A stretch of 64,000 nucleotides of DNA from an uncultured Colwellia sp. (GCA_913058245.1 CAJXQJ010000003.1:124001-188000), one strand, 5' to 3'; positions 33,696 through 51,403 are shown, counted from the first letter of the stretch. Notes: generated by a model from the sequence alone, not told the origin. A program made the numbers and translations.

Positions 33696-33730
33696 TTGAC
33701 TTATATGCGACAGTTGTCGCATTATGTCGC
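33696..33730 (+). promoter_or_regulatory. mltD promoter with BlaI-like operator between -35 and -10
   Basis: TTGACT 33696-33701; TGCGACAGTTGTCGCA 33706-33721; CATTAT 33720-33725; extra half-site ATGTCGC 33724-33730. Confidence 0.6.
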
Positions 33731-33775
33731 TTCTGTAATTAAGCAATAAGCGACCAAGTGCGCAATTAAAATAAT

Positions 33776-35110
33776 ATGAATGCTCATTTAGTGAAAATAC
33801 TTCTGCCTTTAGCTTGCGTGTTTTTAATAACAGCGTGTCAGCAAACCCCTGTTTTACCAGCAACAATTGACGAAGCAAATAGTGCGAAACCTCAAGTACC
33901 CGAGGACAAACCACAGCAGCTGACCAAGACTGAAACTCCCGCCCCAATCGTTTATGAAGATATTTGGCTACGTATCCGCGACCAACTGACGTTTACTGTA
34001 CCGGATAATCAGGAGGTAGCAAAATGGCGAGCGTATTACTTACGCCACCCAAATTTTATGGTGACTATTTCTAAGCGTGCGAAACCATTTCTTTATTATA
34101 TAGTTGAAGAGATAGAGCGCCGCAATATGCCAATTGAATTAGCGCTTCTACCTATAGTAGAAAGCTCCTATCTTCCTTATGGTGTTTCTCATAAAAGTGC
34201 CGCCGGCTTGTGGCAGTTTATGCCTGTTTCGGCAAAACGATTTAATTTATCACGTAATTGGTGGTACGACGGTAGACGCGATATTGTTACATCAACGACG
34301 GCGGCACTCGACTATTTTCAGTTTTTTCATCGTACACTTGGGCAGGATTGGCTAAATGCTATTGCCGCCTTTAACTCGGGAGAAGGGCGTGTTGGAAGAG
34401 CAATTGCGAAAAATAAAAAAGCAAACCAAGCGATTGATTTCTGGTCTTTAAAGCTACCTTCAGAAACCACAGCCTATGTACCTAAACTATTGGCCATTAT
34501 TGATATATTACAGCGCGCTGAAGAACTAAAATATACCTTTACCCCTATTTCTAATATGCCTGTTGTAACAACTATTAGTCTTGAGGAGCAACTCGATTTA
34601 ACATTAGCTGCACAATGGATGAATATTGAGGGCAAGCATTTAGCACGACTCAATCCTGGTTTAAATTTTGGTGTAACACCCCCTGAAAAAGCACATCAAC
34701 TATTAGTGCCACTAGCGTCAGCAGATTTATTACGTGATAAGTTAGCTTCGACTGATAAGGCAGATTGGTTGAGGTGGCACAAATATCGGGTTAAGTCTGG
34801 CGATACCTTAAGTGAAATATCAGCTAAATATTCAACAAACGTAGCAAGAATAAAGCAACTAAATAAACTCACCTCAAACCAGATTCGTATAGGGCAAACA
34901 TTAGTTATGCCATTAACTAGTCAAATTATTAACTTAGCTGACTATACTCGATATGGTACAAAAAGACGCTATCATGTGGTTAAAAGCGGCGATAATCTCT
35001 GGGATATCAGTCGTAAATATAAAGTAAAAGTGCAAGATTTAGTGCGTTGGAACAAACTGGCAAGCAATGGCTTATTGCAACCTAAACAAAAACTCAAAGT
35101 GTCACTTTAG
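33776..35110 (+). CDS. mltD: Membrane-bound lytic murein transglycosylase D with LysM repeats
   Basis: Lipobox LITACQQ; LALLPIVESSYLPYGVSHKSAAGLWQFMPVSAKRFNL; two LysM (YRVKSGDTLSEIS, YHVVKSGDNLWDIS). Confidence 0.95.
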   Translation: MNAHLVKILLPLACVFLITACQQTPVLPATIDEANSAKPQVPEDKPQQLTKTETPAPIVYEDIWLRIRDQLTFTVPDNQEVAKWRAYYLRHPNFMVTISKRAKPFLYYIVEEIERRNMPIELALLPIVESSYLPYGVSHKSAAGLWQFMPVSAKRFNLSRNWWYDGRRDIVTSTTAALDYFQFFHRTLGQDWLNAIAAFNSGEGRVGRAIAKNKKANQAIDFWSLKLPSETTAYVPKLLAIIDILQRAEELKYTFTPISNMPVVTTISLEEQLDLTLAAQWMNIEGKHLARLNPGLNFGVTPPEKAHQLLVPLASADLLRDKLASTDKADWLRWHKYRVKSGDTLSEISAKYSTNVARIKQLNKLTSNQIRIGQTLVMPLTSQIINLADYTRYGTKRRYHVVKSGDNLWDISRKYKVKVQDLVRWNKLASNGLLQPKQKLKVSL

Positions 35111-36321
35111 TTAAGCAACATCGGCAAAGTTGTTGCTGATATACACCAGAGTACGGCCCATAATGGTGAACGATGCCAAATAGAGATAATGGCAAAAGCT
35201 ATAGTCGCAATGGCAAGGTCGATATTGCTAGCGATACTTACCTTAATAATTGGATCGTATAGTGCAGCTGCCAAAATGCCGACAACAGAGGCATTTATAC
35301 CTGTTATAGCATTGGTTACTGCAGGTTTTGAGGCTATGCTTTGCCATAACGGTAGAGCGGCAGAAAGCAAGAGAAAGCCAGGCAAAAACATCAATAATAG
35401 TGCCGTAGTGGCACCAAACCATAGGTTATGATCAGTTGGTATTATAGCGCCTAAATACGCGGCAAAAGCGAACATTGGCCCCGGTATCGCTTGAGCTGCA
35501 CCATAGCCAGCTAAGAAATCCGCTTGAGTTACCATACCATTGGTAACCACAGCATTTTCCAGCAAAGGAAGTACGACATGCCCGCCGCCAAATACCAACG
35601 ACCCAGCGCTATAAAAAGTTTGTGCTATTAAGAGTAAATTCGACTGTGTTGATATTGTTAGCAACACCAAAAATAAAGCGATAAAAGCAATAATAAGCCC
35701 AAAACTTGTGCGCCTGCCAAAGTTAATGTTCATTTGATCACTAACGTCGATACTCGCACCTCGACAGTATTTAATACCGACAATTGCTGCAACTAATATC
35801 ACAAGTATTTGCATGAATGACTGCTCAAACATTAACAAAGCGCACATAGTTGCGATAGTGAGCCCTTTAGTTTTTATGTCGAAACAGAGCTTTTTCGACA
35901 TCCCCAGTATTGCATCCGCAACAACAGCGCATGCAACAAGTTTTAATCCATGAATAGTGGCATCAAACAATTCTCCTGAAAATAATTCCAATGCGGAAGC
36001 AAAGGCTATCAATAGAAGTGCTGACGGTAGAGTAAAGCCTGCGAAAGCCGCTATGGCACCAGTCCACCCTGCTTTAAGTAGGCCAATAGCAAAACCTAAT
36101 TGGCTACTTGCTGGCCCTGGAATAAATTGACAAATAGCTAAAAGCTGGCTGAAAGTGTTTTCTGATAACCAGCGCTGTTTTTCAACGAACTCTTTGTGAA
36201 AGTAGCCAATGTGAGCGATAGGTCCACCGAATGACGTCAAACCGAGTTTGAGAAAAATAAAGAACACATTCCAGAAATTGCCTGAATGTTTATTAAGTGC
36301 TTTATCACTGCTTCTTTGCAT
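35107..36321 (-). CDS. chrA: Chromate transporter family protein (two-domain CHR)
   Basis: FLKLGLTSFGGPIAHIGYFHKEFVEKQRWLSENTFSQLLAICQFIPGPASSQLGFAIG; second half FGGGHVVLPLLE...QAIPGPMFAFAAYLG. Confidence 0.93.
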   Translation of the reverse strand: MQRSSDKALNKHSGNFWNVFFIFLKLGLTSFGGPIAHIGYFHKEFVEKQRWLSENTFSQLLAICQFIPGPASSQLGFAIGLLKAGWTGAIAAFAGFTLPSALLLIAFASALELFSGELFDATIHGLKLVACAVVADAILGMSKKLCFDIKTKGLTIATMCALLMFEQSFMQILVILVAAIVGIKYCRGASIDVSDQMNINFGRRTSFGLIIAFIALFLVLLTISTQSNLLLIAQTFYSAGSLVFGGGHVVLPLLENAVVTNGMVTQADFLAGYGAAQAIPGPMFAFAAYLGAIIPTDHNLWFGATTALLLMFLPGFLLLSAALPLWQSIASKPAVTNAITGINASVVGILAAALYDPIIKVSIASNIDLAIATIAFAIISIWHRSPLWAVLWCISATTLPMLLN

Positions 36322-36345
36322 AAGAATGAACCAAGAAAATCACGC

Positions 36346-36379
36346 ATTATATGACATTCATGTGACAATTAGATGACAA
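36346..36379 (-). promoter_or_regulatory. PhoB-box-like promoter facing chrA
   Basis: - strand TTGTCAT-CTAA-TTGTCAC-ATGA-ATGTCAT: three half-boxes, 11-bp period, with TATAAT (36346-36351). Confidence 0.6.
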
Positions 36380-36502
36380 GTTGTCACACGGGTGTTTATT
36401 TTACATAGATTTAAATAGTGTTAAAAATATCAATTAGATCGAGTCACTGGTGATAGTATTAAAACCAGTTAACATTGGAATAGCTTAACAAAAAGGATAG
36501 TT

Positions 36503-37864
36503 ATGAAAACTAATATAATAAAAACAATTGGTTTGGCTACTATGCTGCTGACCACGTTAGTACTTGATGCTAATGCAGTGAGCATAAAGAATTATGATGC
36601 TGTAATTGAAAAATACGTAAAAGATACCGGTCCTGGTGTTGCGGTTATTGTGACTAAAAACGGTAAAACGCTTTATAAAAAAGCGCGTGGTTTGGCAAAT
36701 ATTGAATTGCAGGTTCCATTAAAAACCAACAGTGTTTTTCGTTTAGGCTCTATCACAAAACAGTTTACCGGTGCTGCAATTATGATGTTAGTTGAGCAAG
36801 GTAAATTATCATTATCAGATGATTTACATAAGTATGTGCCCGACTTTCCAACTGAAAATAACAAGGTAACAATAAGGCATTTATTAACACATACGTCAGG
36901 TATTGCCAATTATACAGAAGACGAAAATATTTGGCTTAGAGAGCTGCAAACGCCGACGACGCTTGATGACATGATCATTCGTTTTGCAAAACATCCTATG
37001 GCATTGAAAGTTGGAGAAGCCAATCGCTATTCAAACACTGCTTATGTTTTATTGGGTAAAATAATTGAAATTGCTAGTGGTAAAACATATGCGGAGTTTA
37101 TTGAGCAAGATATATTTGCCAAACTAGCAATGAAAAATAGCCAGTATGGTGGTTTGCAGATTATTCCTAACCGCGCAAATGGCTACTCTGCGAGTAAAGA
37201 AGGTTACGTAAATGCTAACTTCATCGATATGATGTGGCCACATGCGGCGGGTTCGTTGTTATCCACGGTTGATGATTTAAATATATGGTTTAAAGCATTG
37301 CGCAATGGCCAGTTAATATCAGCAGAGAGCTATAAGTTAATGACCTCACCCATGAAGCTAAATGACGATAGTATGTCAAATTACGGCTTTGGCTTAGGTA
37401 TGTTTAAGCTTAATAAATACGATGCTGTTGGTCATGGTGGCGGTATTCATGGTTTTGCTACTCATGCTTTTTATATTCCTAGTGAAGATCTTTATGTTGC
37501 GGTTCTGAATAATTATGACGCAGGTAACCCAAGTGAAATTTCCAGAGTGTTAGCGGCCGTTGCCCTTGAAATTCCTCTGCCTAAATTTGAAAAAATTGCT
37601 TTTAATAAACAGCAATTAACGCCAATGATGGGAAGTTATAAGCTTGCATCGGGTGATATTCGCAAAATTTTTATAGAAGACAATAAAGTTTATTCGGTGC
37701 GTGGGGACGGACATAAATGGCAAGTTTATCCAATGTCGGATAATGGATTCTATTACGATGGCAGCTTGAGTTATTTCACTATCGACAAGAATGCTAAAGG
37801 CCAACAAGTTATGAATTTTTACAGTGATTTAGCCGAAAATCCAGACGTTGCAGTTAAACAATAG
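36503..37864 (+). CDS. Serine hydrolase, beta-lactamase/class C PBP-like
   Basis: Signal peptide; SITK (FRLGSITKQFTG), YSN (NRYSNTAYVLLG), HGG (GHGGGIHGF). Confidence 0.92.
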   Translation: MKTNIIKTIGLATMLLTTLVLDANAVSIKNYDAVIEKYVKDTGPGVAVIVTKNGKTLYKKARGLANIELQVPLKTNSVFRLGSITKQFTGAAIMMLVEQGKLSLSDDLHKYVPDFPTENNKVTIRHLLTHTSGIANYTEDENIWLRELQTPTTLDDMIIRFAKHPMALKVGEANRYSNTAYVLLGKIIEIASGKTYAEFIEQDIFAKLAMKNSQYGGLQIIPNRANGYSASKEGYVNANFIDMMWPHAAGSLLSTVDDLNIWFKALRNGQLISAESYKLMTSPMKLNDDSMSNYGFGLGMFKLNKYDAVGHGGGIHGFATHAFYIPSEDLYVAVLNNYDAGNPSEISRVLAAVALEIPLPKFEKIAFNKQQLTPMMGSYKLASGDIRKIFIEDNKVYSVRGDGHKWQVYPMSDNGFYYDGSLSYFTIDKNAKGQQVMNFYSDLAENPDVAVKQ

Positions 37865-37886
37865 GTAGCGTTTTATAGCCGTAGTA

Positions 37887-37910
37887 ATGCCGCCTCTGCA
37901 AGCGGCATTT
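37887..37910 (+). terminator. Hairpin after serine hydrolase gene
   Basis: ATGCCGC...GCGGCAT then TT; short T tract. Confidence 0.45.
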
Positions 37911-38011
37911 CATTCTAAACTGCAAACAAATATCTAGCCTTTTAATATTACCGACTACCTTCAACTTTGAAATTTATATTTACATTTATTAAAAATCAAT
38001 TATTTGCATTA

Positions 38012-38041
38012 AGTGTATTGGTGGTATATAACACTATAGTG
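38012..38041. promoter_or_regulatory. Candidate YtrA-type autoregulatory operator
   Basis: AGTGT (38012-38016)...ACACT (38031-38035), overlapping palindrome CACTATAGTG (38032-38041). Confidence 0.35.
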
Positions 38042-38068
38042 AGTGATAAATAACCAAGGAAAATAACA

Positions 38069-38431
38069 ATGCCAACACAGTGGGATCCAGATACACCCAT
38101 CTACATTCAGCTGTATCAGCAAGTGCTCTCTAGAATACTCGATGGCTATATCATCGAAGGAGAGGCGTTACCTTCTGTTAGAAAGGTTGCAGCAGAATAT
38201 CAATTGAATCCAATTACTATTTCTAAGGCGTATCAAATGCTACAGGACGAAAATATAGTTGAAAAACAACGTGGTAAAGGGTTGTTTGTCAACCATGGCG
38301 TACAAGACATTATTTTGAATAGGGAGCGAGAAAGTTTTTTAACTTCTCAATGGCCAAAAATAGTGGAGCAAATCAACCGATTAAAGCTTTCAACTGATGA
38401 CTTGTTACAACCAATTGAGGAGGCTAAATAA
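38069..38431 (+). CDS. GntR-family regulator, YtrA subfamily
   Basis: DTPIYIQLYQQVLSRILDGYIIEGEALPSVRKVAAEYQLNPITISKAYQMLQDE; 120 aa. Confidence 0.92.
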   Translation: MPTQWDPDTPIYIQLYQQVLSRILDGYIIEGEALPSVRKVAAEYQLNPITISKAYQMLQDENIVEKQRGKGLFVNHGVQDIILNRERESFLTSQWPKIVEQINRLKLSTDDLLQPIEEAK

Positions 38432-39288
38432 TGACAACATTAATCTCTATCAAGGGCTTGAGTAAAAGCTATGGGAAGAAAAAGGTAGTATCGGATATTA
38501 ATTTAACAGTAAGCGCTGGACAAATACTAGGTTTAGTTGGGCCAAATGGTGCTGGTAAAACTACTTGTTTGCAATCGATGTTAGGCTTATCTGACTTCGA
38601 CGGTAGTATTGATGTAATGGGTTATGATCCTCGAAAGCAACGTGCAGAAATGCTTAATGACGTTGCCTATATATCTGATGTGGCAGTGTTACCTAGATGG
38701 TTAAAAGTGGAACAGGCTTTGAGTTATATGGCTGATGTACATGGCAACTTCGACCGTGAGAAAGCTGAACATTTTTTGTCAAAAACCAATATAAACTTAG
38801 CCTCAAAAGTTAAAACTTTATCAAAAGGTATGGTTACACAGCTGCACCTTGCACTTATTTTAGCGATAGATGCCAAAATATTGATACTAGACGAGCCGAC
38901 ATTAGGGTTAGATATTTTGACTAGGCATCAGTTTTATAACCACTTGCTGGAAGACTTTTATTCGGATGAGAAGTGCATTCTTGTTACCACTCACCAAATT
39001 GAAGAAATTGAGCACATTCTGACAGATGTTGCTTTTATTCAAGACGGTAAATTGGTAATAAATGAAAGTGTTGAAGCCATGCGAGAGCGTTTTAAATTAG
39101 TTGCTGTTACTAACGACAAGCTAACTCAAGCGCAAGAACTGAAACCAATACACACCAATAGTTTAATGGGCTTAACAACGATGTTGTTTGATCGCTCAAG
39201 TGGTGAAGAATTACAAACGCTGGGTAATATTAGTGCGCCTAGTTTGGCTGATATTTTTGTCGGAGTGATGACCAAGGAGGCTGTGTAA
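38431..39288 (+). CDS. ABC transporter ATP-binding protein
   Basis: Walker A GPNGAGKTT; LSKGM signature; ILILDEPTLGLD. Confidence 0.95.
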   Translation: MTTLISIKGLSKSYGKKKVVSDINLTVSAGQILGLVGPNGAGKTTCLQSMLGLSDFDGSIDVMGYDPRKQRAEMLNDVAYISDVAVLPRWLKVEQALSYMADVHGNFDREKAEHFLSKTNINLASKVKTLSKGMVTQLHLALILAIDAKILILDEPTLGLDILTRHQFYNHLLEDFYSDEKCILVTTHQIEEIEHILTDVAFIQDGKLVINESVEAMRERFKLVAVTNDKLTQAQELKPIHTNSLMGLTTMLFDRSSGEELQTLGNISAPSLADIFVGVMTKEAV

Positions 39289-40196
39289 TGAGTATTGCAA
39301 CATTTAACATGAACATTAAAAAAGAGCTTTGGGAATTTAATAAACTACTTTTTTGGGTACCCGTCATTATTATTACTATGATGGTTGCTGCACCGCTTTT
39401 GCAATTATTGATCATCGAAGATTATCAGATGAATGCTATGTTTGATGGTTTAGCACAATTGCAGCACCATGCCTTAGATGAAGAGTTTACGCGTTTTAGT
39501 TTTGTGGCAATATCTGGATTGTTTGTACCTTTTATGGTGGTGGCGTTACTGGTGCAGCTTTATTATTTTTTGGTTTGTCTGTTCGATGAAAGAAGGGATT
39601 TATCCATTTATTTTTGGCGTTCTATGCCGGTTTCTGATCTTTCAACAATTGCTTATAAACTATTTACCGGAGCCTTTGTCATTCCTGCCGTGTTTATGCT
39701 GGCAGCAACGGTCACATTAATAATTGCAGCATTACTTGCTTTTATTGCTTGTATGATACTTTCAGTAGGGTTTGATATTTCACTGTGGCATATTTGGGGA
39801 AGCTTTAATTTTTTCAGTAATTTAGCTTTAACATGGTTGAGCCTAGTGCCGTTTATTTTATGGCTATTTCCACTATTTGCTTGGTTAATGCTGGCGTCAA
39901 TGTTTGCAAATAAAGCACCTTTTTTATGGGCGTTATTGCCTGTAGTTATTGTTATTTTAGTGGAAGCCTTTGTTGTTCATTACTTTAATTTAGAATCTCA
40001 AATGTTTGCTTCACTATTACTGGACTATTTTGGTATTAGTGATGATACCTTACGTAGTAACTTTACTCATGAAAATGCAATGCATTTAATGCCTATTAAG
40101 GTATTAATGTCGAAAGTGAGTATTGTGGCTTTAGCGATAGGAGCTGGGCTAATGTACTTAACCTATTGGCTAAGGGTGAATAGAAGCCACGCGTAA
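39288..40196 (+). CDS. ABC transporter permease
   Basis: Multi-TM, 1-nt overlap with ATPase stop. Confidence 0.85.
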   Translation: MSIATFNMNIKKELWEFNKLLFWVPVIIITMMVAAPLLQLLIIEDYQMNAMFDGLAQLQHHALDEEFTRFSFVAISGLFVPFMVVALLVQLYYFLVCLFDERRDLSIYFWRSMPVSDLSTIAYKLFTGAFVIPAVFMLAATVTLIIAALLAFIACMILSVGFDISLWHIWGSFNFFSNLALTWLSLVPFILWLFPLFAWLMLASMFANKAPFLWALLPVVIVILVEAFVVHYFNLESQMFASLLLDYFGISDDTLRSNFTHENAMHLMPIKVLMSKVSIVALAIGAGLMYLTYWLRVNRSHA

Positions 40197-40215
40197 TTAC
40201 TTACTAAAATGATAT

Positions 40216-40255
40216 AAAAGCCAATTTAATTGTTATAGATTACATTGGCTTTTTT
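40216..40255. terminator. Bidirectional Rho-independent terminator
   Basis: AAAAGCCAAT...ATTGGCTTTT, 10-bp perfect arms, T-run both ways, between convergent genes. Confidence 0.8.
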
Positions 40256-40268
40256 GTTGCGAGAAACT

Positions 40269-41420
40269 TTATAACGCCGAAGTTTTTAGTTTTTCTTGGT
40301 ATTGTGTTAGGAATTTTCTATGGCGCTTTTTATGCCAAGTAAGCATATTGTCAGCGATAAGTACTGCTGACTTTTGATATTTTACCGCTAACAGATAATT
40401 ACCAAGTTTTGCATAGGCTTTTGCTAGATTATGGTAACTATAAGCATCGTTTGGATATAGCTCTAAGCTTTGCTGTAAAACTGATAGTCCTTTTGTTTGA
40501 TCAACATCGAGTAAATAAAAACCTAATTGATTGATGGAATTTTTCGGTGAAACTTCAAAGCCGTATTTTTGCTTAGAAAGATATTTAAAATGCCTAATAA
40601 TTGCTGGTACCCCTTGCTGAGATATTACTGATTGTGGCGCAAGCCCTTGATGAATATCGTCAAATATTTTTTCGATGCCGAAAACAGTTGCGAGGGGAGG
40701 TAATGACATAAAATAATGGTCATTAAAATTCTTGTAGTGCCAATCTAGTAGTGTGGGTGCTGAAGTCTCGATTATTTTTTTCAGGTTCTTATAGTCTGTT
40801 AGTTGATGTTCTTCTTTAATGCCAGTCCCATGGCTAAACAATAACATGCGGGGTTTATCATTGAGTTTGCTTAACTTATTTTTAGCGGTTGAGAGAATGG
40901 CAACATAATCATCTTTTATTTCTGGGCTAGTAGCAATATAGGCGTTTGCCATATTAGGTTTATTGATCAAGCCAGATAATACTATGGTTGCGTTTGTTCT
41001 AAAGCCGCTCATGATTCGATAGCCATTAGTGCGGTATTTATTGTCGACAGCGGTAAATAGCTGTTCGTCAAAAAAGTCTAATAATGGCGTGGTTTTACCT
41101 GTTTCATCGAATATCATACCGATACGGTTACCGGGTGCTGGTGTAACAATAATGGTTTGTAACCAGGGCCATTCGCCGTTGTGACTCATCCATTGATGCA
41201 TACCACTTAAATAGGAGTTTGCATAATGATGAAAATCAAACATCATGGTGTACGACTTGTCGGTATTTTTAGCGTAGCCTGAAGGCAATGTAACGTTAAA
41301 TTTTAATGGCTCTGAAAATTTGGGATGTGCAATTTCTACGATTTCAAGCGTACTGTTGGCTGTTGCAACTTGGCTAAACATTCCAACTAACAGTAAGGCA
41401 AACGTTATAAATCTTCTCAT
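40269..41420 (-). CDS. Secreted esterase-like protein with C-terminal TPR
   Basis: Same architecture as 16976-18106 (LFTAVDNKYRTNGYRIMSGFRTNATIVL; TPR NDAYSYHNLAKAYAKLGNYLLAVKYQ). Confidence 0.75.
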   Translation of the reverse strand: MRRFITFALLLVGMFSQVATANSTLEIVEIAHPKFSEPLKFNVTLPSGYAKNTDKSYTMMFDFHHYANSYLSGMHQWMSHNGEWPWLQTIIVTPAPGNRIGMIFDETGKTTPLLDFFDEQLFTAVDNKYRTNGYRIMSGFRTNATIVLSGLINKPNMANAYIATSPEIKDDYVAILSTAKNKLSKLNDKPRMLLFSHGTGIKEEHQLTDYKNLKKIIETSAPTLLDWHYKNFNDHYFMSLPPLATVFGIEKIFDDIHQGLAPQSVISQQGVPAIIRHFKYLSKQKYGFEVSPKNSINQLGFYLLDVDQTKGLSVLQQSLELYPNDAYSYHNLAKAYAKLGNYLLAVKYQKSAVLIADNMLTWHKKRHRKFLTQYQEKLKTSAL

Positions 41421-41578
41421 TATTTTCCCTAATATTGATTCACACTAATCTCTCTAGTCTGCTTTAACTAAACGTTATATTCAATGTTTTGATTTTTATA
41501 ATGATTTTGCAGTGAACCAGATTATCTTTCGCAACGTATTCTTAGCTAGGTCTAATCATTTTATGTAGAGCAAACACC

Positions 41579-42103
41579 ATGAAAATCATCATTGTAATTT
41601 TTTCATTATTAATAAGTGCATGTGGCACTGTGTATCCAAATAAAGATATCACCGGACAAGCTTTTCCAATTGTCGAAGGGCAATCATTGGAAGAAAAAAG
41701 CGTCATTATCCCAAGTGATTTCTCTGGTGATATGACCTTGCTACTAATTGGTTACAAGCAAAACTCACAGTTTGATATTGACCGCTGGCTAATAGGTTTA
41801 GATATGACGAAAACGCGAGTCAATGTATATGAAATACCGACTATCCAAGGTTTAGTGCCCCAAATGTTCAGTACCGTTATCGACAATGGTATGAGAGCTG
41901 GAATTCCTAAACCTATGTGGAAAGGAGTTATTACTGTTTACGGCGATGGTGAAAGAGTTCAAGCATTAACAGGTAACGAAAATGCCGCCAATACTCGAGT
42001 AGTATTGTTAAATGAAAAAGGAAAAATTTTGTATTTTTACGATCAAGGGGTTTCTGTTGCGGCGCTTAATGAAGTGAGAGCTGTGCTTGCAAATCACCGT
42101 TAG
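41579..42103 (+). CDS. Small lipoprotein of unknown function
   Basis: Lipobox LLISACGTV; 174 aa. Confidence 0.65.
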   Translation: MKIIIVIFSLLISACGTVYPNKDITGQAFPIVEGQSLEEKSVIIPSDFSGDMTLLLIGYKQNSQFDIDRWLIGLDMTKTRVNVYEIPTIQGLVPQMFSTVIDNGMRAGIPKPMWKGVITVYGDGERVQALTGNENAANTRVVLLNEKGKILYFYDQGVSVAALNEVRAVLANHR

Positions 42104-42215
42104 TAGAGCATTCGGATGATAATATGGTCAGCCGAAATTGGCTATTAAAGCCAGTGTTTTAGTATTTTTGATTAAACGAATTATCGACGAGTTTTGAAGA
42201 TAAAGTTCCTCAGAA

Positions 42216-42255
42216 GAACTTACGTTAATATAGGTAGCCCTATTCACGTAAGTTC
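42216..42255. terminator. Inverted repeat between convergent genes
   Basis: GAACTTACGT...ACGTAAGTTC, inner partial pairing; no clear T tract. Confidence 0.4.
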
Positions 42256-42275
42256 GATAATCATGCTACATCTTA

Positions 42276-43424
42276 TTAGTTAACAGCAAGTTCTAATATT
42301 TCACGACTTTGCGTTAAGGTAATGGCTTGATGCTCACCAAGTTTAACCATGTTGTGCGATTCAAGTTGAGTAATCACGTCATTGACTGCTTTTGTTTTAT
42401 CGCCGCCATGTTCGGTCAGTTGTGTTGCAACATTGAGGCTATGGTAGAAAGCTTCAATAGCATCAATAGTGCGTTCTGCTAGATCGTCACCAGCAGCTAA
42501 AGCAAAAACATTACTGCCTAATTGTTCTAACTTAGCTTTTTTCACTGCCAGTTGATTACGCAATAATGATGGTTGGATTATCGCCAATGAACGTGCATGG
42601 TCTACACCATATAAAGCCGTTAGCTCATGTCCAATCATATGGGTTGCCCAATCATGTGGCACACCAGCACCAATTAAACCGTTTAAGGCTTGATTGGCGG
42701 TCCACATTAGGTTTTCGCGCCATTGCAAGGTTTCTCGCTGATCATATTGCTCGGCTAACACTAATAAATTCTTTAATAATGCTTCAGCGTAACCGTCTTG
42801 AACCATAGCGCCAGTTGGTAGCGTTAAATACTGCTCACAAATATGTACCCAAGCGTCGACTAGGCCGTTAATTAACTGACGTTCTGGCAGTGTTTTCATA
42901 GCATCTGCATCAAGCACTGCAAACTTTGGTTGTACAGCAGGAGAGAAGAATGGCAGTTTATCTTGCGTTTCTGCGCGAGTAATTACCGATGCAGCATTTG
43001 ATTCCGAACCTGTCGCTGGCAGTGTAAGTACTGCGCCGATGGCAACAGCGTCTGTAACATTATGCTTGCCTAATAATATGTCCCAACCTGCGCCATCATA
43101 ACGTGCAGTTGCGGCAACGTATTTCGCACCGTCGATTACTGAGCCTCCACCGACAGCCAAAATAAAATCAATATTTTCAGCTTTTACTAAAGCAACGGCT
43201 TTATCTAATGTTTCCATGGTCGGGTTAGGTTCTACACCTGAAAATTCCAACCAAGAATGATTTGCTAATGCGCTTTCAACTTGCTGGTAAACACCGTTTT
43301 TCTTGATAGAGCCGCCGCCATAAATCACTAACACTTTACTATTCGATGGAATGGCATCGCTAATACTGGCTATTTTACCTTGGCCGAAGTGGATTTGTGT
43401 TGGGTTAACGTATGAAAATTCCAT
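42276..43424 (-). CDS. yqhD: Iron-containing alcohol dehydrogenase, YqhD-like
   Basis: MEFSYVNPTQIHFGQGKIASISDAIP; LAVGGGSVIDGAKYVA; DWATHMIGHELTALYGVDHARSLAIIQP. Confidence 0.92.
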   Translation of the reverse strand: MEFSYVNPTQIHFGQGKIASISDAIPSNSKVLVIYGGGSIKKNGVYQQVESALANHSWLEFSGVEPNPTMETLDKAVALVKAENIDFILAVGGGSVIDGAKYVAATARYDGAGWDILLGKHNVTDAVAIGAVLTLPATGSESNAASVITRAETQDKLPFFSPAVQPKFAVLDADAMKTLPERQLINGLVDAWVHICEQYLTLPTGAMVQDGYAEALLKNLLVLAEQYDQRETLQWRENLMWTANQALNGLIGAGVPHDWATHMIGHELTALYGVDHARSLAIIQPSLLRNQLAVKKAKLEQLGSNVFALAAGDDLAERTIDAIEAFYHSLNVATQLTEHGGDKTKAVNDVITQLESHNMVKLGEHQAITLTQSREILELAVN

Positions 43425-43589
43425 GAAGTACCTCGTCTAATGATTATCTTGTTATCAAATAACTACTTTATTGCTTGCATATTACTCTCCCCTGCAGCCT
43501 TTAAATAGAGTATTAGTCGATATTTATTGCCTATTCGTGTAGAGTTTGGTTTTTGTTTTTGTTAGACAGCCTTTAAGGTAGCTAAAATT

Positions 43590-44495
43590 ATGCAGCAGCT
43601 AGTGAGCGCTATGCAGTGTTATGCAGATTTAAAATCACTAAATAACTTGTCAGGTTCACATCGAACAGTTATTGATGGCGTTAAGTTTTATCGCGCTGCT
43701 CAAAGCAGTTTTCGGCAACCCTTGTTGTATCAATCTGGCATTATTGTGATGGCGCAAGGACATAAGAATATTTATGTTGGCGAGAACTGTGTGCGATACG
43801 GTGCTGGTGATTATTTAGTGCTTGGTGTGCCTATGCCATTAGAATGTGAAGCATTTACGGCCCAAGGGTTACCCTTATTAGGCCTAGCAATTGATGTGAA
43901 CTCACACACTTTGCATAAACTAGTTGCGCAAATAAAGGAGCAAAACGATAAATTTGCAACTGATAGTGCTCAAGACAATACGAAAGAGAGAAATCAGCTG
44001 GACTTTGGTATTAAATCTAATACGTTAGGCGAGCAATTGCATGAAACAATATTGCGTTTATTAAAGGTTTTGCAAAATGACGCTGAAGCGAGAATTCTTG
44101 GGCCAGCTATCGTTGAGGAAATAGTCTACCGCGCATTAATTGGTAAAAATGGTCATATTCTTTTTGATCTTGCTCATCATGATGGGCATTACGCACGCAT
44201 TGCTCGCGTGCTAGATACACTGCACAAGCGCTACGCTGAAACGATATCAGTAGAATATCTAGCAGAACTTGCTCATATGAGTGTTTCGGGTTTTCATAAA
44301 GCTTTTCGGCAAGTAACGAAAGAAACACCGCTACAATATCTGAAAAAAATTCGATTGAATAAAGCAAAAGATTTAATTGTTTCTGATGGCAAGCAAGCAA
44401 CAGAGGCGGCGATGTTAGTTGGTTATACTAGCCCTTCACAATTTAGTCGTGAGTTCAAACGTCACTTTAATGCAACCCCTAAGTCTGTGATTTGA
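43590..44495 (+). CDS. AraC-family regulator with AraC_N domain, YqhC-like
   Basis: C-terminal HTH LAELAHMSVSGFHKAFRQVTKETPLQYLKKIRLNKAKDLI...GYTSPSQFSREFKRHF; divergent from yqhD. Confidence 0.9.
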   Translation: MQQLVSAMQCYADLKSLNNLSGSHRTVIDGVKFYRAAQSSFRQPLLYQSGIIVMAQGHKNIYVGENCVRYGAGDYLVLGVPMPLECEAFTAQGLPLLGLAIDVNSHTLHKLVAQIKEQNDKFATDSAQDNTKERNQLDFGIKSNTLGEQLHETILRLLKVLQNDAEARILGPAIVEEIVYRALIGKNGHILFDLAHHDGHYARIARVLDTLHKRYAETISVEYLAELAHMSVSGFHKAFRQVTKETPLQYLKKIRLNKAKDLIVSDGKQATEAAMLVGYTSPSQFSREFKRHFNATPKSVI

Positions 44496-46012
44496 AGCTT
44501 GCTGCTGTAGTCTTCTAGCATCGAATACAGAAATTCTAGCTTAGTGGTTTCGATATTATTTTTTGCTTGCTGAAACAACTGTTTAGCCGCTTGATGTTCT
44601 CCTTGCTGATAAAGCACATATGAAAGATGTAATGTATTTGAGTTGGTGCCAATCGGGCTTTGTGTTATTTGATTAAGCTTAATGGCATTTTGAAAAGCTT
44701 GTGCTGATTCAGCGAGTGAGTTTTTGGCTAAGTAATGCAAGCCTCTAGCCTCGGCAATACTGGCTTTTATATACCACTCTGGCGCTGTATCAATAGCTTT
44801 TGATGCATGTTCAAAATACTGCTCAGCTTGCTGCCATAACTTTTGATGAGAGGCAATACGAGCTTTAATTAAATCTATATCAGCTTGATTTTGTTGGTTA
44901 ATAGCATGGATTTTTTTGGTCGTATCAATAAGTGTTTTTGCTTTTTGGTATTGTTTTTCCCACAAATAAAGTTTACTTAGGTATATACCTGCAATAACAG
45001 AGTTGGGATTTAAAGCTAAGTAACTTTCAAAAAAACTGATGGAAGATTGCCAATCTGCTTCGTAGCTGATCATTGCTTGAGCAAATAATGCATCACTGAA
45101 TTCTTTTGCTGGCTCATCTGCACTTCTTTGTAGTGGCTGTTTGGTAAAGTCAGCAATTTTTTGTGCGAGCATATTGAGGGCGGCTTTGATATCAGTATTA
45201 AGAATTACCCCTTGTTTTACATCATTTTTAACATGAAATTTATAGGCTAATTTATAGTCAGAAATATTACCATGCAATTCAGTTTCAATAATCAAGCTAG
45301 CACCAGAAGTACTGAACAGTTTATTGATGTCAGCTGAGGTAAAGTGTCTGCTTAGTCCCGCGGTATGCATAAGCTCGGGAATACGAATACCATCATGAAT
45401 ATAAATAGATGCAGGCAGTGCCTTTAATTTAGCAATAACTTGCTCCATGCCGCCAAGGTAAAGCCAGTCATGTTCTCCGTATGCAATTTTATGTTTTACT
45501 GGCAACACAATAATGTTTTGTTCAAACGCTGTGACCGCCTCTGATGTTTTATTGTCAGGGATATGGCTATCACTATTAAACATTTGCGCTAATATGAGCA
45601 ATAACAAGCATAAAACCGTTAAGGCAATGGCAAACCTACGCCAATATAGTTGAAAAACTGTTGGGGAGTTTTCGTCTGGGTTATTACTTTTAGCTTTTGA
45701 GCCCTTATCTACAGGCAATGGAATTAGTGCTGCCGTGAAAGCATAGCCTTTACGAGGGTGATTTTGAATTATATTGCTGTCGGCAAATAGCTGACGAATT
45801 TCTCTTATTGACTGAAAAATTACCCCATCATCAACATTAACATCATCCCAAATTACCTCGAGCAGTTCATTTTTAGTAATAACTTTCCCGCTTCTCTCGG
45901 CTAAATACATTAATACTGTCAGTGTTTTAGGCCGAATATGATGGCTGACATCAGCACCTGACAATGTACGGGTTTGTAAATTTAAAACATAATGATTAAT
46001 TTGATAAAGCAT
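44462..46012 (-). CDS. CadC/ToxR-like membrane winged-helix regulator with TPR-like periplasmic region
   Basis: wHTH (IRPKTLTVLMYLAERSGKVITKNELLEVIWDDVNVDDGVIFQSIREIRQLF...HPRKGYAFTA), one TM, TPR-like C-terminus. Confidence 0.87.
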   Translation of the reverse strand: MLYQINHYVLNLQTRTLSGADVSHHIRPKTLTVLMYLAERSGKVITKNELLEVIWDDVNVDDGVIFQSIREIRQLFADSNIIQNHPRKGYAFTAALIPLPVDKGSKAKSNNPDENSPTVFQLYWRRFAIALTVLCLLLLILAQMFNSDSHIPDNKTSEAVTAFEQNIIVLPVKHKIAYGEHDWLYLGGMEQVIAKLKALPASIYIHDGIRIPELMHTAGLSRHFTSADINKLFSTSGASLIIETELHGNISDYKLAYKFHVKNDVKQGVILNTDIKAALNMLAQKIADFTKQPLQRSADEPAKEFSDALFAQAMISYEADWQSSISFFESYLALNPNSVIAGIYLSKLYLWEKQYQKAKTLIDTTKKIHAINQQNQADIDLIKARIASHQKLWQQAEQYFEHASKAIDTAPEWYIKASIAEARGLHYLAKNSLAESAQAFQNAIKLNQITQSPIGTNSNTLHLSYVLYQQGEHQAAKQLFQQAKNNIETTKLEFLYSMLEDYSSKLQITDLGVALK

Positions 46013-46156
46013 TCGACAGCATAAGGTGAATTTTTATTTATTAATTCAATATTATGCGGACAATTATTATGAATTAATAGCGCAATTTTTCTTGCTTAGC
46101 TTTTGGGCAGTATAAAATATTGCTGATTGATAACTGCCGCTTTTGTTAAGCCTGTA

Positions 46157-47821
46157 CTATTTCTTCGCTCTGGCTTTACCAATAAGTGCGTAGGTAAATT
46201 CATTATTAAGTTTTACGCTACCGTTGCGCACGGTCAGTGCTGTATTAGAGTAGTGATCAAATACTTGCTCACCGTTTGCGTATAGCTTGTAAACCGAAAT
46301 TGTTTTAGCACCAATAGGTAAATCTTTTGCCAGCAGTACTGACGGGCTGCCGCTAAGTTCCCGCTTGAAAATATAGGGTGTTTGGCTTAATTGTTTATGG
46401 GTACCTGAGCCGACCGCATCATAGTTTTGTCGAAAACGACCAAGCTTTTGCCAATGTGCCAATATCGCTTGAGTTTTTGGTGCTTTTAGATCTTGCCAAT
46501 TCATAGGTGTGCGCATATTAGCATCACCATAAGCACCTACTGCATACATAGCGCGAGACAGTTCATCGCCATAATAAATTTGCACGCCCCCCGGAGCTAG
46601 CATGAGTTTGAAAGCAGCCTCGAATGCTTGCTTACGGTTACGATCATATGAATTTTGATCATCGTGAGAGCCGATATAGTTTAAAATACCTTTGCCATCG
46701 AGTTCATGGCTTAACGCCTTGGCATAATTTGAAAATAACTGTTCTGGAGATTGCTTTACATCGTTGACGAAGCTCATATTGATTAAAGCGTCAAAGCCAT
46801 GATCAAAAAAGTTTACTTGTTTATCGCCATAGTCGTACGATAAGCCGTCTTTGGCGGTATTTCCATGACCATTTAGACCCCAGTGATATACTTCACCAAC
46901 CATATAAAAAGGTAAATCATCTTGTACTTTTTGAGGGTTGTTACGTTTCCAAGCTTGCAAGGCTAGCTGGCTTTCCCTTTTTAATACCTGCCAAATTTCA
47001 GCTTCTACGTGTTTAGCTGTGTCCACTCGAAAGCCATCAACGCCGTACTCTCTTACCCAATCAGTTAACCACTTAACAATGTAGTACTTTGGTGCTCGAG
47101 GATATTTGGTTCGTTCGAAAAAGCTAGCTAGTTCGGCAAGTTCTTGCTCTAAGCGGCCTTCTTTTTGCCATTTTTCTAGCAATTGTGTAGGTAGTTCAAC
47201 TTCGGTTTTTGATTCTGTTCGAACGTCAGTCAATGATGTGGCTAAGGCACATTGGGTGTTTTCTTGATAATTGTGCCACTGGCAAACGGGTGTCGTTCTA
47301 ATCCAGCTTTCTGGCCAAGCCCAGTCAGCTTGGGTTTCAGGACCAGTATGATTGATGATCACATCAAGCAGTACTTTGATACCTTGTTGACGAGCTGTTT
47401 CGATCATCTGCTTTAAATCGTCCTCATCGCCAAAATTTGCATCGACAGCGGTCCAGTCTTTTGGCCAATACCCATGATATGAGTATGTAATGCCATCAGA
47501 CTCGTCATAACCATGAACTTGCTCAATTAACGGTGTCATCCAAATTGCGTCAACCCCTAAACGATTAAAATATCCTTGCTGTAACTTTTCGGTGATGCCT
47601 TTAATGTCACCACCTTCAAAGCCACGCAATTTCGCCGTTTTTTCAGTGCGATTATAGGCTTGGTCGTTGCTAGGGTCGGCGTTATTGAATCGGTCTGTGA
47701 GCATGAAATACACAGTAGCATTTTGCCAAAAATGTGCTGTTTTGGCCTGCGTAGTAAGGGTAAAAATACTAAATAGAAAGGGTAAAAGCCATATGGCTTT
47801 TGTCGTAAGTTTTAATGACAT
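46157..47821 (-). CDS. Secreted alpha-amylase family (GH13) glycosidase
   Basis: VYFMLTDRFNNADP; KVLLDVIINHTG; VDGFRVDTAKHVE; MVGEVYHW; YIGSHDDQN. Start at 47821 preferred over 47878. Confidence 0.93.
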   Translation of the reverse strand: MSLKLTTKAIWLLPFLFSIFTLTTQAKTAHFWQNATVYFMLTDRFNNADPSNDQAYNRTEKTAKLRGFEGGDIKGITEKLQQGYFNRLGVDAIWMTPLIEQVHGYDESDGITYSYHGYWPKDWTAVDANFGDEDDLKQMIETARQQGIKVLLDVIINHTGPETQADWAWPESWIRTTPVCQWHNYQENTQCALATSLTDVRTESKTEVELPTQLLEKWQKEGRLEQELAELASFFERTKYPRAPKYYIVKWLTDWVREYGVDGFRVDTAKHVEAEIWQVLKRESQLALQAWKRNNPQKVQDDLPFYMVGEVYHWGLNGHGNTAKDGLSYDYGDKQVNFFDHGFDALINMSFVNDVKQSPEQLFSNYAKALSHELDGKGILNYIGSHDDQNSYDRNRKQAFEAAFKLMLAPGGVQIYYGDELSRAMYAVGAYGDANMRTPMNWQDLKAPKTQAILAHWQKLGRFRQNYDAVGSGTHKQLSQTPYIFKRELSGSPSVLLAKDLPIGAKTISVYKLYANGEQVFDHYSNTALTVRNGSVKLNNEFTYALIGKARAKK

Positions 47822-47886
47822 AGTGTAAAAAATCTCGAGTGATAAAAAGTACTGTTTTTTTACACCTGTCGGGCTCAAAAACTAAC

Positions 47887-47911
47887 TTAAAACTTCTTAA
47901 AAAAACTTAAA
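47887..47911. promoter_or_regulatory. ToxR-box-like triple direct repeat TNAAA-N5
   Basis: TTAAA-ACTTC-TTAAA-AAAAC-TTAAA at 47887, 47897, 47907, upstream of the amylase. Confidence 0.45.
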
Positions 47912-48144
47912 GCATTGATTTGTTAATGACTTTGAACTGTGGTGAGAACAGCAAGCTAGTTGGTGATTGCCTTTGTTCTGCATTGAATACTGATGAAATT
48001 CGCTAATTGATGACAAATAATTTGCAGTTGGCTTGTTACGAAAAAGTATCTTGTACGAGATTAACAGCAATAAAGGCGACAAATTTTTAGTTTGCAGGCG
48101 CTTGGTAAAAGCTAACAGTAATTTTGCATGATCATATAAAAACT

Positions 48145-48203
48145 ATTAATTGCGACAAATGTCGCAATTAATACTTGTACTTTTGTGACTAATGTCGCAC
48201 TAT
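48145..48203 (+). promoter_or_regulatory. Two tandem BlaI-type operators and promoter
   Basis: ATTAATTGCGACAAATGTCGCAATTAAT (48145-48172, 13-bp arms); TTGTAC 48175-48180; TGTGACTAATGTCGCA 48184-48199; CACTAT 48198-48203. Confidence 0.7.
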
Positions 48204-48235
48204 GGTGTTTATGAGCATTGAATTGGTGATAAAAC

Positions 48236-48616
48236 ATGCAACCAACAGCACCTGAATTAGAAATACTGAAACTACTTTGGCATAAGCAACCACGCACTGC
48301 ACGTGAACTTCATGATGAAATTGAAGCGATTTTGGATTGGAGTTACTCGTCAACCCGAAAAACGTTAGAGCGTATGGGGGATAAAGGTTTTGTTGAAATA
48401 GAGTCGCAAGGTAATAAAAAAATTTATACCGCTAAACTTGAAAAAGTATCAACCTTAGCGGCCTTTGCCCAAGACTTTGCAAAGCGAGTTTTTGAGTTAG
48501 ACACTCCGCTCCCTGTTGCTATGTTTAGTGATAGTCGTTTGGTAAATGATGACGAAATAGCTGATTTAGAAAAGTTACTAGAAAAACTTGCCGCCGAAAG
48601 TAAAGGGCGAGAATAA
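48236..48616 (+). CDS. BlaI/MecI/CopY-family repressor
   Basis: PTAPELEILKLLWHKQPRTARELHDEIEAILDWSYSSTRKTLERMGDKGFV. Confidence 0.92.
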   Translation: MQPTAPELEILKLLWHKQPRTARELHDEIEAILDWSYSSTRKTLERMGDKGFVEIESQGNKKIYTAKLEKVSTLAAFAQDFAKRVFELDTPLPVAMFSDSRLVNDDEIADLEKLLEKLAAESKGRE

Positions 48617-48619
48617 TTC

Positions 48620-50041
48620 ATGTTAACCATTCAAACGGTGTTAGTAATTTCATTAAGCTTGATAGGTTTTATTTCTTGGAGCTTGTTACTCGTTTTACTT
48701 GCGAAAGTAGCGCAGCGCTATAGTCAAACGATGACTAATTGGTCGCGCTTTTGGTTGCTCATAATTGCTATTGCCATTATGCCTTTGCTTCCTATATCTA
48801 TTCCTGTTACTCATACCGTGTTACCTGAGGCACTGTTAAGTGGAATTACTAGCTCAGTTGAACCCTTGTTGCAGCAGGCATCTATCGTTGATATTAGTAA
48901 TCAGAAAATAGCATGGTTTAGTGTTGTTGCTATGCTATTGGGGTTTATCTTTGCTTTGAGTTCCTTGGCATTAGTCCGGACATTGTACAATTTAAGTAAA
49001 CTCAATAAATTAGTATTGGCTGCGCCACAACTGACTAACCTTTCAGCTTTTAGCCAGCAACAGCAGTCATATTTCAAGCAAAAAAATATTAATGTGTATT
49101 TGCTTAATTCACATGGTTGCGCTTTTGTTTTTGGTTTTTTAAAACCTTGCCTAGTGTTATCAGAGAAAACATTAGCATTGCCTCCACAGCAATTACATTT
49201 ACTTATTGAGCACGAGCTTTGCCATATTAAGCGTCACGACCCTAAGGTGTTAATTTGCTTACGCATACTTTCCGCAGTGTGCTGGTTTAATCCAGCGATA
49301 TCTTATTTTACTCAGCGCTTTTTAATCTCTATGGAGTTAAATTGCGATGCAGAAGTGTTGACGTTGAGGCCGCAGGATAAGTTACCTTATGCTGAGACTT
49401 TACTCGCTAGTATTAAACTAAATCGTGATGAATATAAAGCTCAACTTATGCCGTATTTCTCAGGTTCGTCAGTAGAAAAAAGAGATATGGAAGCGAGAAT
49501 TCGAGCAGTAATGAAGAGTAAAAATCATGGCAAAATCTCGTCTGTACAACTAATAGTTTTAGGCTTAATAACTTTATTTTTACTTGCTGGCGCAGTGTTA
49601 GCAAAACCAATGTTTACTAAGCAAATATTGAAGCCAAATGAAAGTAATATGCTATTACCTGTGCAAGGTGCGCGCATTTCATCGGGCTTTGGTGAGGTGA
49701 ATAGTTTTAGAGGGCCGAAACAACATTTAGGAATTGATTTCGCTATGGCAAAGGGGAATGCTGTGGTTGCAACTATGTCGGGAATAGTAGTTATTGCCGA
49801 TGCAAAAACTTTGCACGGCAATTATGGCAAAGTTGTATTAATTGAACACGACAATAAGTTGCAAAGTTTATACGCGCATTTGGATGAGATTACAGTACAA
49901 GCAGGTGATTACTTAATTGCCGGACAAAAATTGGGTACAGTTGGTACAACAGGCAGGGTGACGGGCCCGCATGTTCATTTTGAACTGCTTAAGAATGGTG
50001 AGCGTGTTAATCCAACTACTTATTTAAATTTATCGAATTAG
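48620..50041 (+). CDS. BlaR1-like M56 metallopeptidase fused to C-terminal M23 (LytM) peptidase domain
   Basis: M56 HELCHIKRHDPKVL between N-terminal TMs; M23 HLGIDFAMAKGNAVVATMSG...NGYGKVV-like NYGKVVLIEHDNKLQSLYAHL...GPHVHFELLKNG. Confidence 0.93.
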   Translation: MLTIQTVLVISLSLIGFISWSLLLVLLAKVAQRYSQTMTNWSRFWLLIIAIAIMPLLPISIPVTHTVLPEALLSGITSSVEPLLQQASIVDISNQKIAWFSVVAMLLGFIFALSSLALVRTLYNLSKLNKLVLAAPQLTNLSAFSQQQQSYFKQKNINVYLLNSHGCAFVFGFLKPCLVLSEKTLALPPQQLHLLIEHELCHIKRHDPKVLICLRILSAVCWFNPAISYFTQRFLISMELNCDAEVLTLRPQDKLPYAETLLASIKLNRDEYKAQLMPYFSGSSVEKRDMEARIRAVMKSKNHGKISSVQLIVLGLITLFLLAGAVLAKPMFTKQILKPNESNMLLPVQGARISSGFGEVNSFRGPKQHLGIDFAMAKGNAVVATMSGIVVIADAKTLHGNYGKVVLIEHDNKLQSLYAHLDEITVQAGDYLIAGQKLGTVGTTGRVTGPHVHFELLKNGERVNPTTYLNLSN

Positions 50042-50048
50042 TGTTGTT

Positions 50049-50711
50049 ATGATGAAACTAAAATTAATATTGAGTTTACTGGCCGTGATCGCAACGAATG
50101 TGTGGGCAGGAAAAGTGCATGACCACTTTCCAGAGCAAGTAAATACTAATGAGCACTATGTGTTTTATTCCCATGGCTTAATCGTGGAAGGAGAAAATGC
50201 AACTCCGGTGAGTCCACGTTGGGGAGTTTATGATTTCCCCGCGGTTAAAAAGGCATTACAAGATAAGGCATATCACTTGATTGCTTATCACAGGCCAAAA
50301 GGTACAAATCCAAGAGCGTTTGCCGTTAAGCTAGCTGCTGATATTGATAAACTAGTTAAGCGGGGTGTGCCTTATAAAAATATAACAGTGCTAGGCTTTT
50401 CGCGTGGCGGTGAAATAACGGCGCTCACATCGAACATTGTTGCGTCGAATGATATGAATACTATCATTTTAGCGGCATGCGCTGGCTGGCTAATGAAAGA
50501 CCAAAGCATTAAATTGCACGGTAGGGTGTTTTCAATTTATGAAACCTCTGACGGTGTTGGCTCGTGTCAGCGCTTAGTAGATAGAAGTCCCACAGTGGCA
50601 AGCTTTACAGAAGTCGCTATCTCTACTGGTGAAGAACATGGCGCTTTTTACAGGCCAATTCCTGAGTGGGTTGAGCCAGTAAAAAAGTGGCTAAAAAATC
50701 CTCGAGGTTAA
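50049..50711 (+). CDS. Secreted alpha/beta-hydrolase-like protein
   Basis: Signal peptide; ITVLGFSRGGEITALTSN nucleophile elbow; 7-nt gap after the M56-M23 gene. Confidence 0.75.
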   Translation: MMKLKLILSLLAVIATNVWAGKVHDHFPEQVNTNEHYVFYSHGLIVEGENATPVSPRWGVYDFPAVKKALQDKAYHLIAYHRPKGTNPRAFAVKLAADIDKLVKRGVPYKNITVLGFSRGGEITALTSNIVASNDMNTIILAACAGWLMKDQSIKLHGRVFSIYETSDGVGSCQRLVDRSPTVASFTEVAISTGEEHGAFYRPIPEWVEPVKKWLKNPRG

Positions 50712-50761: not shown

Positions 50762-51403
50762 TTATTGTCGCAATGCCTCCATATCAGCAATGATCTCTTC
50801 AAGTTTCTTAAACTCGCGACCGTAAATTGGTTTCATATCTAGCTGATAAATGGCACTGGCAAAATAAGACAATAAAAATGCTATTAATACCACACCGACA
50901 CTAAATACTATTGGCACACCAAATAGCACCGGTATATTTGGAAAGTCCATTTGAAAACCTTGAATAATTGACTGACCTACCGCGGAAAAACCAAACTGTG
51001 CGATACAAGCTAGAAATATGGCCGGATATACAAACTGATATATTCTTGTGTACTGAGCAATTAAGTTTTTTAGCCAAGTATCAAATGATTTAATGTACTG
51101 ATAACTGCTGGTTTTCTTATCTAAATGTTCGAGAGTCGCAAGCTGTTTTTTTCCGAGCCAAACCAACATTAATAAAATAGCAGAGGTGAAGACAGCTAAA
51201 GCTGGCATGCCTAAAGCGCTTAGTACAATGAGGATTGCTATCGCACCGATCGCAATGGCAATGATATTAATTTTAAACATGCGATGTAGTTTATCGACAA
51301 TGTTATTTGATTTCTGATTGTATAAGTCGTTAATTTTAGGCGCGACAAGTGCTTTATCGTCGATAAAACCTTGCTGCCAAATTGTTTCTATTGATTTAGT
51401 CAT
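50762..51403 (-). CDS. Membrane protein, probable anti-sigma partner
   Basis: 213 aa with TM pairs; directly abuts upstream ECF sigma gene. Confidence 0.6.
   Translation of the reverse strand: MTKSIETIWQQGFIDDKALVAPKINDLYNQKSNNIVDKLHRMFKINIIAIAIGAIAILIVLSALGMPALAVFTSAILLMLVWLGKKQLATLEHLDKKTSSYQYIKSFDTWLKNLIAQYTRIYQFVYPAIFLACIAQFGFSAVGQSIIQGFQMDFPNIPVLFGVPIVFSVGVVLIAFLLSYFASAIYQLDMKPIYGREFKKLEEIIADMEALRQ

Follow-up and report, generated by a model that had tools for sequence, protein, structure and literature searches.

An inverted-repeat operator shared by a BlaI/M56-M23 operon and a distant MltD-like gene points to a common BlaI regulon in an uncultured Colwellia

We analysed a 64,000-nt stretch (the window) of the genome of an uncultured Colwellia sp., a marine gammaproteobacterium (GCA_913058245.1, CAJXQJ010000003.1:124001-188000), in which two plus-strand loci are of concern here. 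The first is a gene for an MltD-like lytic transglycosylase of 444 amino acids (33776-35110), with a lipoprotein signal and lipobox, an SLT domain with an ES motif and its catalytic Glu (Pfam, 1.3e-21), and two LysM repeats (2.4e-31). The sequence-only reading had named this gene mltD; membership of the MltD-like family stands, and the equivalog assignment does not (PRK10783, 346 bits against an NCBI cut-off of 508), so the protein is a paralogue, which for brevity we still call mltD. A longer, canonical MltD is found in relatives as well. Members of the window's MltD family, with copies 60-75% identical, are rare, occurring in 9 of the 397 genomes of our family sample, and the repressor described below occurs in five of these nine genomes versus 46 of the 388 others (p = 0.002).

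The second locus, about 13-14 kb further on, begins with the gene for a BlaI-family repressor of 126 amino acids (48236-48616, plus strand). Its Penicillinase_R match (9.4e-24; 84.4 bits against a Pfam cut-off of 22.6) and its match to MecI structures (1e-7) place it in the family, while it falls below the NCBI equivalog cut-offs for BlaI (46.9 of 180 bits), MecI (31.2 of 250) and CopY (CopY_TcrY, 55.7 of 121.95). The recognition helix, SSTRKTLxRM, is invariant in 47 of 47 sequences. The Phe at P1′ of the bond that is cleaved in MecI is also invariant, P1 being mostly Met and not Asn. The repressor gene is followed by that of a 473-residue M56-M23 fusion (48620-50041, plus strand), a membrane protease with a C-terminal LytM-type peptidoglycan peptidase, and, 7 bp downstream, by a third operon gene for a predicted secreted alpha/beta hydrolase (50049-50711, plus strand), whose Abhydrolase matches are weak and under the cut-off and whose homologues come after the M56-M23 gene in relatives. 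Adjoining the blaI cassette on the minus strand is a gene pair (50762-51895) consisting of an ECF sigma factor (51404-51895) followed by a 213-residue protein without a family match. In an uncultured gammaproteobacterium (L169) the same pair lies immediately upstream of blaI, and two sister species of the window (G013 and G015) retain it without the blaI cassette.

The M56-M23 protein combines strong matches to Peptidase_M56 (1.3e-31) and Peptidase_M23 (1.8e-30). Both zinc motifs are intact in 47 of 47 homologues, the M56 motif reading HELCH in the window and HExxH throughout, and the M23 ligands of the HxxxD and HxH motifs (H369, D373, H451 and H453) are invariant across 32 aligned homologues. 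The BlaR1 structure 8EXP aligns with residues 10-322; the C-terminal penicillin-binding sensor domain is absent from the protein, with the M23 domain in its place, and the score against the NCBI BlaR1 equivalog is 60 bits (cut-off 400). In a structural model (mean pLDDT 80), N-terminal helices, a helical protease domain and a helix at 308-327 lead to a separate LytM fold, which matches ShyA, Csd3 and LytM in Foldseek. Matches of the full model are dominated by M23 domains, and the likeness to BlaR1 comes from sequence comparison, not from Foldseek. Without the penicillin-binding sensor domain, the protein lacks a defining feature of the BlaR1 class, yet it is likely to work in a BlaR1-like manner, and, going by BlaR1 topology, its M23 domain would face the periplasm. 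For the same reason, the inducer cannot be carried over from BlaR1. M56 domains in M23 proteins are known from database surveys, where they make up <1% of M23 proteins and no role of M56 has been shown (PMC9662197).

The two loci share an operator-like inverted repeat. One copy, TGCGACAGTTGTCGCA (33706-33721), lies upstream of mltD, and two, TGCGACAAATGTCGCA (48151-48166, distal) and TGTGACTAATGTCGCA (48184-48199, proximal, 33 bp from the distal one), lie upstream of blaI, all read on the plus strand; the sequence-only reading had left this difference in number unremarked. Around the distal copy, the palindrome extends without a mismatch to 30 bp (48144-48173). Direct reading of the sequence and a pattern search both confirmed these three palindromes, which the sequence-only reading had reported, and the search also bore out its statement that the window holds no further exact TGYGAC-N4-GTCGCA, intergenic or otherwise. 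Throughout the searched genome (G000, a 2.96-Mb assembly, 67% complete), these are the only three exact sites, all before the mltD and blaI loci, and a reversed control pattern has 0 exact matches. Outside these loci, every site in the genome with one mismatch (L004-L008) falls within an ORF, and we did not retain these as targets; the G254:C1 site (L204) likewise falls within an ORF. We scored the sites with a matrix built from 102 blaI operators of relatives, leaving out the window's own genome. The mltD site scores 27.1 bits, whereas the real operators have a median of 25.4 and the highest score reached in 3 Mb of order-3 Markov simulation is 15.6; the distal and proximal blaI sites score 28.4 and 22.4 bits, and the next best score in the window is 7.4. 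Indeed, the mltD operator, a palindrome that is perfect except at its centre, is identical letter for letter to blaI operators of relatives (e.g., G409 and G334). Looking by eye for a second operator 33-34 bp further upstream, we saw none.

A consensus scan places the mltD operator within the spacer of a promoter, TTGACT-18-CATTAT (33696-33725, plus strand), with its −35 at 33696-33701 and its −10 at 33720-33725, the latter overlapped by the last two bases of the operator. The sequence-only reading had put the operator between −35 and −10 at both loci; for mltD the scan agrees, whereas it missed the blaI promoter, which is recognised by eye only as a probable, weaker TTGTAC-17-CACTAT on the plus strand, with its −35 at 48175-48180 and a poorly matching −10 at 48198-48203. 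Most orthologous blaI promoters have CTTG here, some 9-11 bases ahead of the proximal operator, and the mltD promoter shows the same geometry.

Across relatives, the motif follows the repressor. Wherever the neighbourhood could be read (about 45 genomes), BlaI is followed by an M56-M23 fusion and preceded by the same operator. An inverted repeat with the ACANNTGT core was present in 54 of 54 blaI upstream regions, some sites being one base off; positions 2, 4, 5, 11, 13 and 15 are invariant and positions 6 and 12 nearly so (TGYGACANNTGTCRCA). Including that of the window, 50 of the 54 regions hold a pair of operators (47 with a distance of 32-34 bp, three with 47 bp), and the four with a single operator, as at mltD, are all from Colwellia. 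We counted a genome as carrying BlaI if it matched the window's BlaI at E<1e-18, a threshold that 50 further family genomes pass, giving 51 genomes with and 346 without. The pattern TGYGACANNTGTCRCA occurs in 47/51 of the former and 18/346 of the latter (Fisher p = 3e-41, a value that overstates the case because the genomes are not independent samples). The 18 matching genomes without BlaI have mostly one site apiece, and all eight of the sites inspected lie inside genes. A perfect TGCGACAATTGTCGCA precedes folD in G060 (L246 7236-7251), which belongs to another family and lacks a BlaI ortholog, and we leave this intergenic site as chance or the site of another regulator. In one subgroup (L209, L210 and L194), the operators stand 47 bp apart with an esterase gene divergently upstream, an arrangement that suggests a shared two-way control region.

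The strongest evidence for a link between mltD and blaI is gene order. In seven relatives, namely Colwellia piezophila (L178), four other Colwellia (L172, L174, L179 and G065/L180), a Psychrobium (L175) and the uncultured gammaproteobacterium (L169), mltD lies inside the blaI operon, in the order operator-blaI-M56/M23-(hydrolases)-mltD on one strand. A class D beta-lactamase gene directly precedes mltD in three of them (L172, L174 and L179); the L174 protein scores 271 bits (cut-off 250) and the other two are 94% identical to it. These genes, from deep-sea Colwellia, encode OXA-2/OXA-20-like enzymes and stand between the hydrolases of the blaI operon and mltD (L172 9070-9903, L174 9069-9902, L179 11092-11925). 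In C. piezophila, the class D beta-lactamase is matched over part of its length by a short ORF and nothing more. In one genus, a PF00144 beta-lactamase-family protein, class C-like or AmpH-like and below both NCBI cut-offs, comes directly after M56-M23 (L190, L191, L215, L216, L222, L223, L225, L226, L228, L229 and L232). ShyA/MepM-like M23 peptidases are also part of the blaI-operon cargo of relatives. Together, the class D, PF00144 and M23 cargo fits a wall-damage or beta-lactam response and indirectly supports a role in cell-wall stress for the system.

In the window, mltD stands apart from blaI with its own operator, an arrangement met in this genome only. The sister species G013 and G015 have mltD at the same syntenic place and no blaI, the blaI cassette being missing from the matching region beside the ECF sigma factor gene. 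Their mltD promoters keep the −35 TTGACTTAT, as in the window, and the box is degraded at the otherwise invariant GAC/GTC bases (5.5 bits in G013, −4.2 in G015). In the mltD tree, the window copy groups with those of G013 and G015 (100/99) within a group that includes operon-linked copies (92/97); the BlaI alignment, at 122 columns, is too short for placing the window's blaI copy. Most simply, mltD would have moved out of the operon in the lineage of the window, taking a copy of the operator along, and the box would have been lost where blaI was lost, a reading that rests on a single event in one sister pair. The mltD promoter is operator-free in four relatives, so regulation by BlaI would not be essential to mltD.

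An esterase gene follows M56-M23 in many blaI operons. In three genomes (G174, G211 and G278) it is found away from the operon with its own operator pair, 33-34 bp apart (L203 4957-5006 in G174, L192 2325-2374 in G211 and L202 4724-4772 in G278); the blaI operons of G174 and G211 are without an esterase, and G278 has an esterase copy both inside and outside the operon. Cargo genes can therefore stand either in the operon or under an operator of their own. The detached esterases of G211 and G174 adjoin a divergent alpha/beta hydrolase gene and a sigma-factor-like gene.

Because the same operator stands in both promoters, and because relatives have mltD inside the blaI operon, sometimes beside a beta-lactamase, one BlaI-family repressor very probably controls both its own operon and the MltD-like gene. 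The regulon that the sequence-only reading had proposed thus gains support from a motif that tracks BlaI, from operon linkage in seven relatives and from loss of the box at mltD in two sister species without blaI. Against it stand the single operator at mltD and the one genome in which a detached, operator-bearing mltD is found; in Clostridium thermocellum, paired sites seem to be required by two BlaI proteins (PMC8457756), although the four Colwellia blaI operons noted above also have a single operator. The single site, the degraded box in both sister species and the grouping of the window mltD with theirs would also fit a box left over from the exit from the operon and no longer meaningfully regulated by BlaI. 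We consider this quite unlikely, since the site is not decaying, being perfect outside its centre and above the median working operator, since one dimer bound between −35 and −10 should block the polymerase, and since the sister species without the box are also those without blaI.

The geometry of the palindrome raises a different issue, as TGYGA-N6-TCRCA has the layout bound by CRP and the CRP-S half-site has TGCGA at its core (PMC6728893), so that the mltD palindrome could be a CRP or Sxy-dependent CRP-S site, TGCGA-N6-TCGCA, with a coincidental likeness to the blaI operators. However, inner bases that CRP does not need (C at position 6, ACA/TGT) are near-invariant in the operators and present at mltD, the motif follows BlaI and not the whole family, a site in the promoter spacer has the position of a repressor and not of an activator, and the looser pattern TGYGA-N6-TCRCA gives only the same three matches in the window; such a site is very unlikely. 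A real operator could also be bound by another BlaI-family protein, as G000 has two further such genes (contigs C5 and C7; 28% and 21% identical). This is highly improbable, given that the motif goes with orthologues of the blaI gene in the window and that the C7-type paralogue occurs in the 16 same-genus genomes searched, all without a blaI-type operator and with 0 or 1 pattern match each (inside genes in the two inspected, G003 and G015); a distant paralogue (L013) is preceded by a classical TTACATGTGTAA-like box instead. Single sites do arise by chance, as the 18 genomes without BlaI show. For the mltD palindrome, chance is an extremely improbable explanation: the inspected sites in those genomes are all in coding sequence, no simulated site comes within 11 bits of that of mltD, and chance would have had to place the site in the very promoter whose gene belongs to the one family kept by relatives within the blaI operon. 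Further BlaI targets or a competing regulator may be absent from the 67% complete assembly.

Under the shared-repressor reading, and by analogy with the BlaI/BlaR1 family for DNA binding, repression and cleavage, a dimer of the 48236-48616 product would bind TGYGACANNTGTCRCA. In the non-inducing state it would repress blaI, M56-M23 and the hydrolase gene through the two operators that flank and overlap their promoter, and the MltD-like gene through the one operator between −35 and −10. Disturbance of the peptidoglycan would change the state of the M56-M23 protein, the periplasmic M23 domain most likely reading peptidoglycan and not beta-lactam, a signal to which the domain content points. The cytoplasmic M56 protease would then inactivate BlaI, as BlaR1 does, and the blaI operon and mltD would be switched on together. 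We give this whole explanation, comprising shared BlaI repression, M56-M23 sensing and joint induction, a probability of about 0.82. More tentatively, and at somewhat less than even odds, M56-M23 may be a peptidoglycan-reading anti-repressor in which M23 senses the wall, through cross-links or the products of failed cross-linking, and the protease destroys BlaI.

Both the BlaI-BlaR1 switch and the control of unlinked genes by a BlaI have precedents. With BlaI-BlaR1/MecI-MecR1 of Staphylococcus and Bacillus licheniformis, the system shares a Penicillinase_R repressor gene adjoining an M56 protease gene, inverted repeats that overlap the promoter of its own operon and are bound by the repressor (here predicted), beta-lactamase genes in the operons of several relatives, and the Phe after the MecI cleavage bond. 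It differs in its Gram-negative hosts, in the predicted targeting of a lytic transglycosylase, in its operator (GACANNTGTC as opposed to TACANNTGTA) and in a sensor that is an M23 peptidoglycan peptidase where theirs is a penicillin-binding domain. The inner part of the operator fits the CopY consensus RNYKACANNTGTMRNY at YKACANNTGTMR (PMC7253601), whereas here G and C flank the ACANNTGT core, the targets and partner are cell-wall enzymes and M56-M23, and the CopY_TcrY score is below its cut-off. Mycobacterium tuberculosis Rv1846c (PMC12565901) and C. thermocellum BlaI_0696 (PMC8457756) likewise control their own operon and unlinked genes; in the accessible parts of these reports, the targets differ (blaC, cell division, ATP synthesis or hypothetical genes), and neither a lytic transglycosylase nor an M56-M23 sensor is described. 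AmpR-AmpC and BlrAB also link the state of the peptidoglycan to beta-lactamase or hydrolase expression (PMC3660660), but AmpR is a LysR-type activator and BlrAB a two-component system, neither with a membrane-protease anti-repressor. Unlike the surveyed M56-M23 proteins (PMC9662197), the one described here can be connected with a repressor and with its operator and target genes. We found no description of an M56-M23/BlaI system in Gram-negatives in the open-access literature, a weak negative as subscription papers were outside its scope, and what appears to be new is a BlaI system whose sensor has an M23 peptidase replacing the penicillin-binding domain.

Little is known of how Gram-negatives without AmpR or BlrAB couple wall damage to the expression of beta-lactamases and hydrolases, and our analysis suggests that Colwelliaceae and their relatives use a route based on BlaI. 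With this system, the idea that M23 domains serve as wall sensors can be put to a simple test, and its sharply defined operator lets regulons be read straight from genomes. If M56-M23 is indeed a peptidoglycan-reading anti-repressor, Gram-negatives would have, next to AmpR and the two-component systems, a third kind of induction of beta-lactamases and wall hydrolases, and the cargo of its regulon stays in the operon or under operator copies of its own.
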